Shown here: positions 8,338 to 50,748 of the stretch, one piece after another
Layout: every line of letters begins with the position of its first letter
How positions within the stretch are numbered: the first letter of the stretch is position 1
Assembly: GCF_001029285.1 (NCBI RefSeq)
Contig: NZ_LDZY01000006.1
Span: 62,001-126,000, forward strand
DNA from: Desulfosporosinus acididurans
GTDB lineage: Bacteria > Bacillota > Desulfitobacteriia > Desulfitobacteriales > Desulfitobacteriaceae
DNA: 64,000 bases
Direction: 5' to 3'
Position numbers and translations under genes: made by a program
The notes under the pieces: model-generated
Database searches by the model: none
Seen by the model: the letters and a program-made list of their open reading frames with translations, nothing else
What the model was told of the DNA's origin: nothing

Positions 8338-10044
8338 CTAAAACATAAAGTAACGCTGAGCCAAAGGCAGGACTTCTAGCGGCTCACAAGTCAGGTTCTC
8401 TCCATCGGCAGTCACTTGATAGGTTTCAGGGTCCACTGAAATCTGCGGTGTCGCCGAGTTATGCTTCATGTCGGCCTTCCCAATATTGCGGCAGTTTTTC
8501 ACCGGAACAAGTTGTTTTGCCAGCTTTAACTCCCTGGCCAGTTTTTCCGAATCCGCTGCCTGAGATATAAACGTTAAGGAACAGGCGGCGATTGCTTGCC
8601 CAAAGGAAGCAAACATCGGTCGTTGGATCACCGGCTGAGGTGTGGGAATGGAAGCATTAGCATCACCCATGGCGGCATACATAATAAACCCTCCCTTGAT
8701 CACCATACTTGGTTTTACCCCGAAAAACTTCGGATTCCAAAGTACCAGGTCCGCTAATTTACCCTTTTCAACCGAACCAACTGTATGACTGATTCCGTGG
8801 GTGAGCGCAGGATTAATAGTATATTTGCTAATATAGCGCTTAATCCGGTTATTATCGTTCTCTCCGCTCTCAGATTCTAAGAAACCCCTCTGCAGCTTCA
8901 TCTTATGGGCCGTTTGCCAGGTTCTGATGATCACTTCGCCAACCCGCCCCATGGCCTGAGAATCCGAAGACATCATGGAAATAACGCCCAAATCATGTAA
9001 AATATCCTCAGCAGCAATGGTTTCCGGCCGGATGCGGGAATCAGCAAAAGCAATATCTTCCGGAACTCGTTTATCGAGATGATGGCATACCATGAGCATA
9101 TCAAGATGTTCTTCCAGGGTATTCACCGTAAACGGCCGGGTAGGATTCGTTGAAGATGGCAGGACATTAGGCAATGAGGCTACTTTAATGATATCCGGAG
9201 CATGGCCTCCTCCCGCTCCCTCGGTATGAAAGGTATGAATCGTCCGCCCGCCAATGGCAGCAATGGTATCTTCGACAAATCCTGCTTCATTCAGGGTATC
9301 CGTATGGATGGCGACCTGAATATCATATTCGTCGGCAACCTTGAGGCAGCAATCAATAGCGGCAGGAGTCGATCCCCAATCCTCATGCAGTTTAAGACCC
9401 ATGGCCCCGGCTTTTACTTGGGCTATCAAAGGTTCGGGCAGCGAATTATTCCCTTTTCCGAAAAAGCCCATATTAATTGGAAAGGCTTCAGCAGCCTGCA
9501 GCATCCGGTACATATTCCATTCCCCCGGCGTACAGGTGGTAGCATTCGTTCCGGCTGCCGGGCCGGTTCCGCCTCCAAGCATAGTTGTAACGCCGGAAGC
9601 AATGGCCGTCTCAACTTGCTGCGGAGAAATAAAATGAATATGGCTGTCAATTCCGCCTGCCGTAACGATAGAGTTCTCTCCGGCAATCACCTCGGTCCCA
9701 GCTCCAATCGGAAGGTTAACTCCAGCCATTGTCTTAGGATTTCCTGCTCGGCCCAGGCCATAAATCCGACCTTCCTTGATCCCAATGTCAGCCTTGATAA
9801 TACCCCAATGGTCGATAATTACGGCATTGGTGATCACTGTATCCATAGCTTCGTTCAAAGCTTGAGGGTCCTGGCCCATCCCATCGCGAATAACCTTGCC
9901 ACCGCCAAATTTGGCTTCATCACCAGGGCTGGTCATATCATCTTCTACTTCCAACCATAATTCCGTATCTGCCAAACGAATTTTATCGCCAGTGGTTGGT
10001 CCATACATATCGGCATGCTGACGACGGGACATATTCAATGTCAC
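8338..10044 (-). CDS. ureC: Urease alpha subunit
   Basis: 568 aa catalytic subunit hydrolysing urea to ammonia and carbamate. Nickel ligands are visible: HIHFISPQQ (two His), GLKLHEDWG (carbamylated Lys and His), and [13 protein letters not shown] (Asp). The mobile flap [21 protein letters not shown] contains the active-site His. I start at the GTG at 10044 because AGGAGG lies 9 nt upstream; the ATG at 10032 gives the canonical [17 protein letters not shown] start and is the alternative, while an ATG at 10080 has no ribosome site. Confidence 0.95.
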
Positions 10045-34403: not shown

Positions 34404-34429
34404 CTTCGTAGAAAAAAGCCTTACAATTT

Positions 34430-34523
34430 CATAGAGGGAGCTTAAGGAAGTAAGCTGAGAGGGCAGTTGGTACCACTGCCGACCTTTGAACCTGATCTGG
34501 GTAATGCCAGCGGAGGGAAGTGA
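34430..34523 (+). ncRNA. TPP riboswitch (THI element)
   Basis: Conserved core visible: GCTGAGAGGGCAG in the pyrimidine-sensing arm, then GACCTTTGAACCTGATCTGG and GTAATGCCAGCGGAGGGAAG. Binds thiamine diphosphate. A terminator follows at 34546-34574, so control is by premature termination when TPP is plentiful. Downstream genes are thiM and thiE. Confidence 0.95.
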
Positions 34524-34545
34524 TCTATTTTAATCGGTAATTAAT

Positions 34546-45918: not shown

Positions 45919-46457
45919 CTATATTATACCACAAATTGGATTTTTTTGTTCATTGGAGCAAGTATGCTCCTTTGAAAATTGTCTTATTCTAGGGGTTTCA
46001 AGCTTATCCTCAAGGAGCCTTTTAAACATAGTATTCTGCTCTTCACTTTTTGCCCGAGGATGAACTAAACAGAGTAAATCCTTAAGCTTCACAGCACTGT
46101 CTCGGTTGTACTTGGCAAGTTGGTACTCATCAAAGCCAAGCAGTTTATCGGCCACTCCCTTTTTTAAAGAGTTGGGGATCGGCTTGCCATAAGTATTTAT
46201 ATAATAAGCGAGTACCTCTGTCAGATCATCCACTCTTTCAATGGATCTGTCCATAACTTTCCTCACATAGAGCTTGCCGTAATTAGCTTTTGGGCTGTTT
46301 TGACTATTTCCCTTGAATTATCTCCATAATATTTATCTTCATTAAAAAGGCTGGTAAGCACCTGGATGACCAGTTTTTCCTTATCCGCCATTCCATATGC
46401 TTCATGCCCTGATATGTTCACTGTTTTCATGGGAACTCTGGAATTGAATTTTGACAT
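45919..46457 (-). pseudogene. rsr: Broken Ro60/Rsr (TROVE domain) gene
   Basis: The first frame from ATG 46457 (AAGG eight nt upstream) reads MSKFNSRVPMKTVNISGHEA through YYGDNSREIVKTAQKLI, the start of bacterial Ro60. It stops at 46263. A second frame continues with YVRKVMDRSIERVDDLTEVL, YYINTYGKPIPNSLKKG, FDEYQLAKYNRDSAVKLKDLL and HPRAKSEEQNTMFKRLLEDK, then ends at 45919. About 35-40 residues between the blocks are deleted with a frameshift, and the whole C-terminal half, including the vWA-like domain, is absent (family ~500 aa). It follows three Y-RNA-like genes. Confidence 0.85.
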
Positions 46458-46484: not shown

Positions 46485-46577
46485 GCCCGGGAGAAAAGTG
46501 GAAGTGTATTCGCAGATTTGAACTGCAGATATAAAATATCCCTACCAAGAAGTAACACTTTCCTGCACTGCCCGGGG
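46485..46577 (-). ncRNA. Y-RNA-like ncRNA, third unit (Y3)
   Basis: On the minus strand it starts GGGCAGTGCAGGAAAGTG TTAC and ends ACACTTCCACTTTTCTCCC. The two ends pair into the long bulged helix expected for Ro60 binding, closed by CCCGGG. Inside are a GATATTTTATATC hairpin and GCAG-TTCAAAT-CTGC, whose loop is a tRNA T-loop sequence. The 3' end is about 28 nt before the Ro60 start codon. The ends are nearly identical to Y1. Boundaries approximate. Confidence 0.75.
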
Positions 46578-46599
46578 TTTTTAGAAGTAGTAAACTTGT

Positions 46600-46745
46600 T
46601 CAGCTAAGCTAAACATCGAAGCTTCAGATACAATAATGTCCAGTGGACATTATTGCCGAGCCGCCTTTCCCAATAGGAATACTTAGCGGCGAAGAAGGAC
46701 TCTACCCCACCTGAAGTTTACAAAGGACCCGCCTCCACTTAAAGA
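46600..46745 (+). repeat. Dispersed structured repeat R1, copy 2
   Basis: Matches 21270-21420 with few changes: GCTTCAGATACA, arms AATAATGTCCA / TGGACATTATT, TTTCCCAATAGGAATACTTA, CCCACCTGAAG. It ends with CCTCCACTT..AAGTGAGG, a small hairpin. It sits between Y2 and Y3, antisense to them. Confidence 0.7.
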
Positions 46746-46770
46746 AGTGAGGTTCTTAAAGACTGGATAA

Positions 46771-46900
46771 TAGGGAGAAAAACTATTCGAGTATATAGTG
46801 CTCTACCAACTGAGCTATTCACTCTTTCGAAAAGTGAAACCGGATTCGAACCGGTGACATCCCGGTTAACAGCCGAAGTACCTCAAATATACACTGCCCT
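46771..46900 (-). ncRNA. yrlA: Y-RNA-like ncRNA with circularly permuted tRNA-Asn-like domain (Y2, YrlA-type)
   Basis: Ends AGGGCAGTGTATATTTGAG and CTCGAATAG..TTCTCCCTA form the Ro-type helix. Inside, in order on the minus strand: an anticodon-arm-like hairpin CGG-CTGTTAA-CCG (loop carries GUU, 46870-46868), the T arm CCGGTTCGAATCCGG (46854-46840), the acceptor 3' strand TTTCACT, a closing loop TTTCGAAA, the acceptor 5' strand AGTGAAT, and the D arm GCTCAGTTGGTAGAGC (46815-46800). All tRNA arms exist but the order is permuted and the acceptor end is closed. YrlA RNAs with tRNA-like domains are known partners of bacterial Ro60. Confidence 0.85.
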
Positions 46901-46909
46901 ATATCCCTA

Positions 46910-46990
46910 AGGGAGAAAAGCGGAAGTGCGCTGCAGTAGTCAACTGCAAGTTTTGGAGACTTTCAAAGTAACACTTTCCTGCACTGCCCT
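46910..46990 (-). ncRNA. Y-RNA-like ncRNA, first unit (Y1)
   Basis: About 81 nt. 5' AGGGCAGTGCAGGAAAGTG and 3' GCACTTCCGCTTTTCTCCCT pair into a bulged helix almost identical to that of Y3. Apical part has the hairpin TGCAGT-TGACT-ACTGCA. Only ten bases separate it from Y2, with no terminator or promoter between, so Y1 and Y2 are likely made as one precursor. Start expected near 46998 from the TATAAT at 47009-47004. Confidence 0.75.
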
Positions 46991-47003
46991 CATCTCTAGA
47001 TAA

Positions 47004-47046
47004 ATTATAAGTCTACTGTCTCCTGACTTACAGACAAAAACCTTGC
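47004..47046 (-). promoter_or_regulatory. Promoter of the Y RNA operon with shared upstream element
   Basis: Element GCAAGGTTTTTGTCTGTAA (47046-47028), 18-bp spacer, TATAAT (47009-47004). The element covers the -35 position, and CTGTAA is a poor -35 box. The WYL regulator gene has the same element (18 of 19 bases) with the same 18-bp spacer. Suggests activation by a common factor. Confidence 0.6.
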
Positions 47047-47109: not shown

Positions 47110-49371
47110 TCATATGCCAGCTTTAAAATTGTAAATAGGTTTAATTAGCTTCAATATCTTTACTGCATCTTGGATATTATCAATAATCTCCCCCATGGGT
47201 TTATAGGCCATGGGCGCTTCATCGAGAGTAGATTCATTTACAGACGTACTAAATATGCCTTCCATAGACTTTTCATAGTCTTCGAGAGTCAGACTTTCCT
47301 TGGCTTTACTCCTGCTCATTAGCCTTCCTGCCCCATGGGGAGCAGAATAGTTCCAGTCGGGATTTCCCAAGCCAACAGCCAGTATGCTCCCATCCCTCAT
47401 GTTTATTGGAATTAGCACTCTCTCCCCTTCATAGGCAGAGATACTTCCTTTTCTTATTATGTTGTCCTTGAAGTTGATATAGTTGTGAATAGTGTTAAAG
47501 TAGCTAAAGTCCTCTAACTTTTTATCCAGAAATTTTTCTAAGATCATGTTTGCCATGGTTTGTCTGTTCAGGACTGCGTATTCCTGACAGATATTCATAT
47601 CATGCAAATATTTTTCCTTGTAAGCCCCCGTTAAGAAGCACAAGTCCCTTGGATATTCTGGCATCAAGGCATCATACTTTTTCTTTAATTCCTTCAGGGC
47701 TCCCTGGATGAGTTGTCTCTTGCCTTCCTTTTTATACGCTGAAATTATTTTATCTCTCAGCTCATAATATTCTGCTTTTCCCGAGCACAGATCAATAGCA
47801 AGGTTTTGATAGTATTCTGCGACCTGCTTTCCCAGGTTCCGGCTGCCCGAGTGGATAACAAGATAAAGATTGCTATCATCGTCCCTATCCACTTCAATAA
47901 AATGATTCCCTCCTCCTAAAGTCCCGATGCTTCTTTCAATTCTTCTTGTATCCTTTAGCGCTCTATAGCAATGCAGTTCCTGAAGCTTTGGAAACTTTGC
48001 TATCCTGCCTTCATGGACATTCATACCTGATGGTATCCATTGGCGGATAACGTCATCCATCTGCCTCAAATCCAAATCAACTTTGCCAAGTTCAACCGTT
48101 GTCATGCCGCAGCCGATATCTACCCCCACAATATTCGGTATAACCTTATCACCTAAATCTGCGGTAAATCCTATAACACAGCCCTTTCCTGCATGGGTAT
48201 CGGGCATTATGGCAATCTTGCTGTCCTTGCAGAATTCCTGGTTGCATAATTCCATGACCTGGGCAGCAACTTCAGGCTCTAACTTATCAGTATAAACTTT
48301 TGCACTGTTGTATTTGCCGTTTAACTCTATCATTTTCCTTCCCTCCTCGGGGTATAGATTACAATTATTTAAATCGAGTGCACGTCTTATTCTTTTAACG
48401 ACCTCATCAATAACCCTTGGCGGCGAAACCACCTTAACATAAGGGCCAAGGGCAAGTATTTTCCTTATAATCTCCTCTTCCTCAAAGGTGTAATAAAAAA
48501 GCTTCATTTCGTATTGATCTTCTCCTATGCACCTTGAGTAGCGCTCCATTGCTGAAAAACTCATAAAACATCGTTCCATAGCCGCCTTCTTATCTGTAAC
48601 CTCTATGACTATGGGTTCTTGGGAATACCTATGTTTATGTATAAGCCTGATTGCACCTCTCCTGTCAATGACCTTTTCATCGTTTTCCTCAATTTCAATC
48701 TTACTCAGGGAAAATACGTTTGCCATCACAGGCCTCTCCTCATCCAAGGAGTACATAGAAACCCTAAAGCGGCCATCCTTAAGAGAATATTCCATTCTTA
48801 TAGGAAGAGCTCTTTTTTCACAATATTCATTACCAAATCTGTCAACATTAGAATATTTTATTGACTTCTCTCTCTGAATTGCTGCTAATAAAATCTTGAG
48901 GTTGTATTTATACGTTTCAAGATCTTCAATTTCCGGAAGAGTCGATTGGTTTGTGATATCAATAATTCTGCCTGTATCGGGATAACCGGCACTCTGTAAT
49001 GCGTCTTTAAGCTTTGCTCTAGTAGTATCACTTAATAGAAGCTTTAACGTCTCCTCGTTCAGTAAACTATTTAGCCATGCCTTTTCGATACTTGTAAGTC
49101 TTACAGGTACAGGCGGCCTCTTATCTCCCATGACGGCCGGGTAGTATGCTTCATTCTTTAATTGAAGCAGATTAAGATTTTTTCTCCCATCATATTGATT
49201 TAAGAGAAGTCCTGCAAACGTCTGAAAATCCTTGCCTACAACCTTTTCCTGAAATTCCTCTTCATCAACAATTTTTATAATGTCCTTCCTTGAGAGACCC
49301 TTCTCGCACTCATTGAGGACCTTAAATACAATATGAAAATATCTGTTTTTCACTTCATCAAATAGCTCCAT
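47110..49371 (-). CDS. rtcB: WYL domain-RtcB RNA ligase fusion
   Basis: 753 aa from ATG 49371 (a TTG three codons earlier is possible). Residues ~1-110 are helical, HTH-like; ~165-350 match a WYL ligand-binding domain; ~365-753 are a full RtcB. RtcB motifs: IMPDTHAGKGCVIGFT, the metal Cys in NIVGVDIGCGMTTVEL, GTLGGGNHFIEVD, VIHSGSRNLGK, and the guanylylated His in YSAPHGAGRLMSRSKA. RtcB joins 2',3'-cyclic phosphate or 3'-phosphate to 5'-OH RNA ends using GTP and Mn. Normal RtcB is ~400-480 aa, so the N-terminal half is extra. Y RNAs and Ro60 follow it. Confidence 0.9.
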   Translation of the reverse strand: MELFDEVKNRYFHIVFKVLNECEKGLSRKDIIKIVDEEEFQEKVVGKDFQTFAGLLLNQYDGRKNLNLLQLKNEAYYPAVMGDKRPPVPVRLTSIEKAWLNSLLNEETLKLLLSDTTRAKLKDALQSAGYPDTGRIIDITNQSTLPEIEDLETYKYNLKILLAAIQREKSIKYSNVDRFGNEYCEKRALPIRMEYSLKDGRFRVSMYSLDEERPVMANVFSLSKIEIEENDEKVIDRRGAIRLIHKHRYSQEPIVIEVTDKKAAMERCFMSFSAMERYSRCIGEDQYEMKLFYYTFEEEEIIRKILALGPYVKVVSPPRVIDEVVKRIRRALDLNNCNLYPEEGRKMIELNGKYNSAKVYTDKLEPEVAAQVMELCNQEFCKDSKIAIMPDTHAGKGCVIGFTADLGDKVIPNIVGVDIGCGMTTVELGKVDLDLRQMDDVIRQWIPSGMNVHEGRIAKFPKLQELHCYRALKDTRRIERSIGTLGGGNHFIEVDRDDDSNLYLVIHSGSRNLGKQVAEYYQNLAIDLCSGKAEYYELRDKIISAYKKEGKRQLIQGALKELKKKYDALMPEYPRDLCFLTGAYKEKYLHDMNICQEYAVLNRQTMANMILEKFLDKKLEDFSYFNTIHNYINFKDNIIRKGSISAYEGERVLIPINMRDGSILAVGLGNPDWNYSAPHGAGRLMSRSKAKESLTLEDYEKSMEGIFSTSVNESTLDEAPMAYKPMGEIIDNIQDAVKILKLIKPIYNFKAGI

Positions 49372-50647
49372 AATTGTCAAGCATCTCCTTCCAGTCCTCA
49401 GTGATTTTGTTCAAAAGACCTCTCCCCTGAATAACCTTGATATATCCAGAATAGCTTCTAATCCAAGGCACCATCTCATTGCTGTCATTAACGAACACGT
49501 GGAGATGATAGCATCCCTCTGATATCCTCTCGATAGTTCCTTCCGGAACCTCACTTCTAATCTTCTCAATGATATAGTTTTCTCGAGGCCGATCTATGGT
49601 AATTTCCAAACAAATCTTCTCCGGCTTATGTCCTGCAGCCAAAGGCACGCTAGACCAGCTGTACTTAATGCTTCGTCTATAAAACTCTTCAAGATATCCC
49701 TTTTCGAATGTATTCTTGCAAACTTCTATAGACTCTATTCTGTCAAGCCTGGATATGATGCACCTATTCTGCAAATCATAGGACACTAGATAAAGTCTCC
49801 CGCAGCTTATGTCATACCGGATTTTATACGGTTTCAGCAACGGTCTATTATCAACGTTCGTTTTGGCTGCCGGAAGAATATAATCTAGTCTCACATATCT
49901 TCTTTCATGGATTGCCTTTAATATTTGGCAGAGTACCTGCTCCTCGATGACAGGATGAAAATGTAGATTTTTGTATTGAAAATCATCCCTTAATGCCAGA
50001 ACCATTCTTCTCTCATACCTTGCATAGTCCTTTAAGCTTTGTTCCATGTAGTACCCTGCAGTTACTGGAAACACTATGTTTTTAAGCAAAGACACTGCGG
50101 TAAGCAAATCCTCAATCTCTTTATTGTCCAATTCTTTAAGAATATCCTCAGCCACGTTATAATACTTTGTCCTCTTAATGGTTTGGCATTTCAATATGCC
50201 TTTCTCCTTGCACATCTCATGAAGTTTACGTTCTACGGTCTTACTGCTGATATTGTCATAAGATATCAATCCTTCTCCTATTAGATATTCCTCTATCTCC
50301 TGAAAACTCAAGTCTTTATCCTCAGCGTTTAAAATCAGCAGAAGGCTGAAATATAAGATTAAATCGGAATGGGTAAAGCTTTTTGTCATGTATGTTTTGA
50401 CTAAAAAGTTTTCCGTAGTTCTTATAGAGTCAGAGGTCAGAGCTAAAAGCTTGTTTCTCCCATCTCTATCTGTCTTTATAAATTCAGTTTCAACATACTG
50501 CTGTATTCGTCTGATTTCATAACTTATCTTCCTTGAACTAAGCTTTCTCTTTTCTCCTAAATCTTCCCTTGAAAAACATCCATAAAGGAAGACATCTCTG
50601 AGTATTGACCTTATAATGTTATAGTGCTTAATAAAATCGTTAAACAA
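49358..50647 (-). CDS. WYL-domain transcriptional regulator
   Basis: 429 aa. An N-terminal HTH-like region (about residues 15-60) is followed by a WYL domain in the second half (RRYVRLDYILPAAK, LLKPYKIRYDISCGRLYLVSYD) and a C-terminal WCX part. TTG start with AAGGAGG seven nt upstream. WYL regulators sense nucleic acid or nucleotide ligands and often control RNA/DNA repair and defence genes. Overlaps the RtcB fusion gene by 14 bp, so one operon. Likely controls the locus through the element at its own promoter. Confidence 0.85.
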   Translation of the reverse strand: MFNDFIKHYNIIRSILRDVFLYGCFSREDLGEKRKLSSRKISYEIRRIQQYVETEFIKTDRDGRNKLLALTSDSIRTTENFLVKTYMTKSFTHSDLILYFSLLLILNAEDKDLSFQEIEEYLIGEGLISYDNISSKTVERKLHEMCKEKGILKCQTIKRTKYYNVAEDILKELDNKEIEDLLTAVSLLKNIVFPVTAGYYMEQSLKDYARYERRMVLALRDDFQYKNLHFHPVIEEQVLCQILKAIHERRYVRLDYILPAAKTNVDNRPLLKPYKIRYDISCGRLYLVSYDLQNRCIISRLDRIESIEVCKNTFEKGYLEEFYRRSIKYSWSSVPLAAGHKPEKICLEITIDRPRENYIIEKIRSEVPEGTIERISEGCYHLHVFVNDSNEMVPWIRSYSGYIKVIQGRGLLNKITEDWKEMLDNYGAI

Positions 50648-50705: not shown

Positions 50706-50748
50706 AGTGTAAACTAAATCAATAATGTTTTACAGACAAAAAGCTTGC
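50706..50748 (-). promoter_or_regulatory. Promoter of the WYL-RtcB operon with shared upstream element
   Basis: Element GCAAGCTTTTTGTCTGTAA (50748-50730), 18-bp spacer, TACACT (50711-50706) as a weak -10. Differs from the Y RNA promoter element by one base. Start expected near 50700, about 50 nt before the regulator start. Confidence 0.55.

Follow-up and report, generated by a model that had tools for sequence, protein, structure and literature searches.

A YrlA-type Y RNA with a complete, circularly permuted tRNA-like domain

The stretch of DNA analysed here, referred to as the window, comprises 64,000 nucleotides (nt) of contig NZ_LDZY01000006.1 from Desulfosporosinus acididurans, and the feature under study lies on its minus strand. 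Three RNAs with common ends (GGGCAGUG...UUUUCUCCC) are located there between a WYL-rtcB fusion gene and the remains of rsr, the gene of Ro60 (Table 1). The middle one, RNA2, is a YrlA-type Y RNA that holds a permuted tRNA-like element. Mimicry of the D arm, T arm and acceptor by YrlA is already known; RNA2 adds a full anticodon arm. Comparison with relatives in bacteria and phages shows, at the level of sequence, this architecture together with a covarying anticodon stem, a loop that keeps U33 and either U36A37A38 or G36G37A38, a sealed acceptor and a linkage to Ro60. We lean, with little more than even confidence, towards a reading in which the Y RNA is associated with Ro60, its effector half copies a whole tRNA in circularly permuted form together with the anticodon arm, and its likeliest use would be as a bait or partner for tRNA-acting enzymes.

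From 5' to 3', RNA2 consists of the first strands of the outer and Ro-type helices, UAC, the anticodon arm, AUGUC, the T arm, the acceptor hairpin, UA, the D arm and the second strands of the helices. The UA between the acceptor hairpin and the D arm corresponds to tRNA positions 8 and 9. The acceptor strands, at 46838-46832 and 46824-46818, are closed by a loop of 7 nt, UUCGAAA. An earlier note on this DNA had described all four arms in the order anticodon, T, acceptor, D, and they were found in that order on the minus strand; its assignment of the element as a circularly permuted Y RNA, with a sealed acceptor and with the Ro helix inserted between the D and anticodon arms, is likewise supported. 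RNA2 also has the YrlA arrangement in which a closing helix surrounds a T arm, an acceptor hairpin and a D arm in permuted order. The Rfam YrlA model (RF02553) scores it at 33.8 bits (E-value 1.7e-5), below the gathering score of 69, and the Rfam tRNA model at 27.3 bits, below the gathering score of 29.

Relatives in bacteria and phages

Bacterial relatives were sought with the N-terminal part of the WYL-RtcB protein. Three Clostridium loci (L062-L064), from C. tetanomorphum, C. sp. OS1-26 and C. homopropionicum, encode a WYL-RtcB protein 64-68% identical to that of the window, and in all three a YrlA-type RNA separates rtcB from an intact rsr. The Ro helix, T arm, acceptor and D arm of these RNAs are like those of RNA2. 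In the Bacillota family f25, 62 such RNAs were found in 60 of 297 genomes, nearly all of them with the anticodon arm (UUCGA-CUGUUAA-UCGAC and UUCGC-CUGUUAA-GCGAC are examples), and a gene for a TROVE protein, the Ro60 family, is present at 29 of 30 loci. When 398 genomes were drawn evenly from the phylum, the pattern occurred in five, all among the nine genomes with TROVE.

Viral sequences in IMG/VR were scanned with a pattern that left the anticodon region free (10-24 nt). The first scan gave at least 120 matching stretches and further scans raised this to at least 247 (L081-L327), of which 200 of 247 contain a TROVE gene. Ro60 is also present in 375 deposited phage records, with hosts that include Mycobacterium, Streptomyces and Bacteroides. 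In Caulobacter phage CcrPW, two armed forms lie upstream of a Ro60-like gene, one of them with the loop CUGUUAA.

Conservation and covariation of the anticodon arm

The anticodon arm of RNA2 is accepted as real because the comparative evidence decides in its favour. Among 142 strictly permuted viral RNAs, 79 were called as having an arm, compared with 24 expected from shuffled sequences; for an arm with U33 and a purine at position 37 the numbers are 73 and 3.2. For closer analysis, 115 distinct RNAs were chosen by tRNA spacing only. The search pattern itself fixes positions 27-29 on the 5' side and leaves them uninformative. Pair 30-40 is GC in 84, CG in 12, UA in 6 and AU in 4 of the RNAs, and pair 31-39 is CG in 57, AU in 35, UA in 12 and GC in 5. 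After reduction to 67 non-redundant sequences, 91.8% of cells pair, and the covariation score, which takes in the T arm too, is 0.574 compared with 0.178 for shuffled sequences and at most 0.121 for slid partners. Within the anticodon arm itself, both-sided changes occur in 17 of the 67 sequences at pair 30-40 and in 31 at pair 31-39. The presence of this arm, described in the earlier note, is borne out by such covariation. The closing helix has comparative support too: half of the RNAs (118/236) pair better with their own partner than with 95% of swapped partners.

Anticodon loop and position-37 classes

The loop follows a strict grammar in the 115 RNAs selected by spacing. U33 is present in 104 and A38 in 107, and positions 36-38 read UAA in 71 and GGA in 26. 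Positions 34-35 are widely variable, also between closely related f25 genomes. For comparison, the same phage stretches supplied a control set of 933 true tRNAs. In this set position 36 is U in 359, A in 210, G in 190 and C in 174, compared with U in 74, G in 28, C in 7 and A in 6 of the Y RNAs. The class with U36A37 or G36G37 makes up 101 of 115 Y RNAs versus 480 of 933 true tRNAs (p 5e-15), and within the U36A37 class C34 is depleted, being found in 4 of 74 Y RNAs versus 111 of 351 true tRNAs (p 5e-7).

G36G37 is the signal for 1-methylguanosine formation at position 37 (m1G37) by TrmD. For N6-threonylcarbamoyladenosine (t6A) at the same position, the requirement in human mitochondrial tRNA is U36A37A38 with position 35 free (PMC7102964), and the Y RNA loops with U36A37A38 and a free position 35 match it. 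Judged from these sequences, the arm imitates tRNAs of these position-37 classes and not tRNA-Asn specifically, because positions 34-35 drift while 33 and 36-38 are kept. The description of the domain as tRNA-Asn-like in the earlier note therefore finds no support in that form: with 33 and 36-38 fixed, positions 34-35 vary freely (GU, UC, UU, CU, GA, GC, CG). Nor is the Y RNA a copy of the tRNA-Asn of its own genome. The idea that phages pair one t6A-class with one m1G-class Y RNA found no support: two armed copies occur in three stretches only and such a pair in one.

Possible function and alternative explanations

In the proposed mechanism, the outer helix would bind Ro60, the sealed acceptor would keep the Y RNA out of translation, and the head would present a full tRNA surface to proteins that recognize whole tRNAs via positions 33 and 36-38. 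Retention of these positions with drift at 34-35 would fit a partner that recognizes 33 and 36-38. Position-37 modifying enzymes (t6A, m1G) or anticodon nucleases would be the likeliest candidates; with the latter, the Y RNA could serve as bait or decoy in the course of phage conflict and RNA repair. Recruitment of tRNA-modifying enzymes, raised in the earlier note, is plausible: the loop conforms to the rules for t6A37 or m1G37, and the published Salmonella YrlA is a substrate modified by DusA and TruB (PMC8394870). Recruitment of RtcB, raised at the same time, is suggested here by a single pointer, a promoter element shared by the Y RNAs and the rtcB operon (see below); RtcB is encoded in 4 of 247 viral stretches. 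Extended to phages and some bacteria in general, the proposal would be that they make Ro60-bound whole-tRNA mimics, with arms restricted to t6A37- or m1G37-eligible loops, as sealed and uncharged bait for enzymes that recognize or cut anticodon arms. We offer this wider version tentatively.

Several observations weigh against the proposed bait. In the three Clostridium RNAs, the nearest relatives of RNA2, the anticodon arm is weak or altered in shape. The earlier note had set conservation of the arm in homologues as a test of its proposal; the outcome is mixed, with the arm kept in phages and in family f25 but not well kept in these three. Many viral relatives have a shorter region (13-17 nt) before the T arm, often with GGAA and without a 7-nt anticodon-like loop. 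RNAfold applied to the window RNA alone favours an alternative pairing by 1.6 kcal/mol; the inner pairs of the anticodon arm reach probabilities of ~0.9 once the T arm is in place. Common descent may lie behind part of the bias at positions 36-38, and the rarity of RtcB in the viral stretches counts on the same side. Finally, rsr is adjacent in the window but broken; it is intact in L062-L064 and in most relatives, and the broken gene is the only Ro60 gene in the D. acididurans genome. TROVE searches found no intact Ro60 near the lineage of the window, and none in 82 other genomes of its class. With its Ro60 gene broken and no other copy in the genome or the sampled class, the Ro60 system may be decaying in D. 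acididurans, and for the same reason the Y RNA would either work there without Ro60 or be a recent relic.

The main rival explanation is that the RNA is an adaptor for RNA decay or repair, its head anchoring PNPase, RtcB or the like and the anticodon arm adding grip without serving as bait. The published machine of Ro, Y RNA and PNPase and the modification of YrlA by DusA and TruB (PMC8394870) speak for an adaptor, as does the promoter box common to the Y RNAs and WYL-RtcB. However, an adaptor leaves unexplained why t6A- or m1G-eligible loops are selected while positions 34-35 drift, and RtcB is seldom encoded in the viral stretches. We regard it as possible but doubtful, and prefer, with modest confidence from sequence comparison, a bait for modification enzymes or anticodon nucleases.

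RNA2 could also be read as an ordinary YrlA, with mimicry limited to D arm, T arm and acceptor and with an anticodon-like hairpin that is incidental to the sequence joining the Ro helix to the T arm; we consider this improbable. In its favour, a hairpin is absent from the Rfam YrlA model at that place, the Clostridium relatives are without a good one and RNAfold does not favour the arm. Incidental sequence would not, however, account for the covariation, the fixed tRNA spacing, or the U33 and 36-38 grammar seen in over 100 relatives.

A true permuted tRNA gene, in which RtcB or another ligase would join the ends and the acceptor loop would be excised to give a working tRNA, is still harder to accept. 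The native-order sequence, with its acceptor closed by a loop and no CCA encoded, gave no tRNA genes in ARAGORN. After RNA2 was re-ordered by hand and CCA was added, ARAGORN called it tRNA-Asn(GUU), and 203 of 222 re-ordered sequences in all were called as tRNA; rtcB also neighbours the RNA in Bacillota. ARAGORN is, however, permissive on re-ordered sequences, with controls shuffled in the anticodon region scoring nearly as high (157/222). Furthermore, the 7-nt loop of the window RNA gives no room for CCA and processing between the acceptor ends, in 21 of 142 viral relatives the acceptor loop, at 0-2 nt, leaves no space for a discriminator and CCA, positions 34-35 drift, and RtcB is infrequent in viral stretches.

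Of 74 genomes in the order, 38 give a match to the Rfam YrlA model. The 29 loci examined outside the window all proved to be tandem tRNA genes, mostly tRNA-Asn followed by tRNA-Met, and the model is therefore unusable as a detector here. A T-to-D pattern search of the order likewise found tandem tRNAs only, apart from the window. The same arm order would arise if RNA2 were left over from two tRNA genes standing side by side, with the 3' half of a tRNA-Asn ahead of the 5' half of its neighbour, exactly as at those 29 loci. This explanation fails and is barely credible: the acceptor strands of RNA2 pair with each other, CCA is not encoded, and the whole unit, enclosed by a Y RNA helix, lies between rtcB and rsr, a place at which three Clostridium species have conserved it. 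The permuted layout may have had an ancient origin in tandem genes. As a separate observation, at L068 and L076 (G177), near 2628 and 2837, a tRNA-Asn gene stands in tandem with a tRNA with a CAU anticodon, adjoining a TROVE gene, and no armed Y RNA was found at the locus.

Promoter and neighbouring genes

The Y RNA cluster and the gene of the WYL regulator are preceded by the same promoter box, GCAAG-TTTTTGTCTGTAA, with exactly 22 nt from TTGTCT to the -10 element at each. Two of the Clostridium loci have the box at both places, the third before its Y RNA cluster. It resembles the mycobacterial P1 promoter element tTGTCRgtg, which is linked to the WYL regulator PafBC (PMC5656591). Since the box is shared and rtcB ends in a terminator-like hairpin of its own, the Y RNAs are likely a separate unit co-regulated with the WYL-rtcB operon.

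Table 1. Features of the Y RNA locus, numbered by position in the window.
Feature	Position	Strand	Basis
Armed YrlA-type Y RNA (RNA2), whole: outer and Ro-type helices with complete permuted tRNA-like domain	46765..46906	minus	Sequence; Rfam YrlA E 1.7e-5; same-place homologues L062-L064; fold
Anticodon arm UUCGG-CUGUUAA-CCGGG (positions 27-43)	46861..46877	minus	Covariation in 67 non-redundant relatives; 115 relatives
Variable loop AUGUC (44-48)	46856..46860	minus	Sequence; 5-nt spacing kept in most relatives
T arm ACCGG-UUCGAAU-CCGGU	46839..46855	minus	Sequence; conserved in all relatives
Acceptor hairpin UUCACUU-UUCGAAA-GAGUGAA, 7 bp, without CCA	46818..46838	minus	Sequence; hairpin unlike tandem tRNA genes
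D arm GCUC-AGUUGGUA-GAGC	46800..46815	minus	Sequence; conserved
Ro-type helix, 5' strand UAUUUGAG	46882..46889	minus	Pairs with 46784-46791, probabilities > 0.93
Ro-type helix, 3' strand CUCGAAUA	46784..46791	minus	Pairing probabilities; own partners beat swapped partners in relatives
RNA1, simpler Y-like RNA upstream	46910..46991	minus	Same terminal sequences, without full tRNA-like domain; repeat families D1 and D2; counterparts in L062 and L063
RNA3, simpler Y-like RNA downstream, with T-arm-like hairpin	46486..46576	minus	Repeat families D1 and D2; counterpart in L064
Y RNA cluster promoter: TTTTTGTCTGTAA box, then -10 TATAAT	47004..47040	minus	Conserved at fixed spacing in four species; only exact match in own genome
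Same box before WYL regulator gene, -10 TACACT	50706..50742	minus	Comparison with Clostridium loci
rtcB with N-terminal region ending in WYL-type WCX domain	47110..49380	minus	Pfam RtcB 3e-62, WCX 1e-5
WYL-domain regulator, upstream of rtcB	49358..50647	minus	Pfam WYL 1e-5
Broken Ro60/rsr (TROVE) gene: frame disrupted, C-terminal part missing	45919..46457	minus	Intact at same place in L062-L064

A dispersed repeat of ~176 nt with a 12-nt perfect inverted repeat, at 46590-46765, lies between RNA2 and RNA3; in C. homopropionicum the counterparts of these two RNAs stand side by side. The genome contains about 40 copies of the repeat, with identities of 86-93%. Elsewhere in the window, Rfam matches 5_ureB_sRNA at 9606-9889 on the plus strand (81.7 bits), and a thiamine pyrophosphate (TPP) riboswitch is located at 34424-34535.

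Significance and comparison with known systems

A conserved arm with a strict loop grammar provides a testable handle on the unsettled role that the tRNA-like part has in bacterial Y RNAs. It raises the question which protein recognizes positions 33 and 36-38 in an RNA whose sealed acceptor makes charging unlikely. Hughes et al. have speculated that YrlA could competitively inhibit an anticodon nuclease (PMC7790460), although the Rfam model of YrlA is armless; the armed forms, some of which are in cultured phages, are far better candidates for examining this idea. A literature search, with incomplete coverage of the key YrlA papers, found no account of the anticodon arm, the loop grammar or the spread among phages.

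The closest known system is YrlA itself (RF02553; Salmonella YrlA, PDB 6CU1), which shares with the window RNA the Ro helix at the ends, the permuted T arm, acceptor hairpin and D arm, and the association with rtcB and with rsr, although the adjacent rsr is broken in the window. Its circular permutation relative to tRNA has already been published (PMC11472068, PMC8394870). In contrast to the window RNA with its full anticodon arm, the Rfam model is armless at that place; the armed RNA of the window and the relatives scanned, at 33-54 bits, all score below the 69-bit threshold. The permuted tRNA genes of red and green algae also encode the 3' half of a tRNA before its 5' half. However, in the Y RNA the junction lies between the D and anticodon arms and carries a putative protein-binding helix, and the acceptor is sealed. 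The tmRNA and the tRNA-like structures of plant viruses also copy tRNA to engage tRNA-handling proteins, as the Y RNA may do, but those RNAs keep or build a chargeable acceptor end, whereas the acceptor of the Y RNA is closed. The tRNA-Lys of phage T5, a nuclease-resistant phage tRNA active against PARIS (PMC11455837), is similarly a phage RNA with ties to tRNA and to attack on the anticodon. RNAs of that type are working tRNAs, whereas the Y RNA has a sealed acceptor and lies next to a Ro60 gene, the one in the window being broken.
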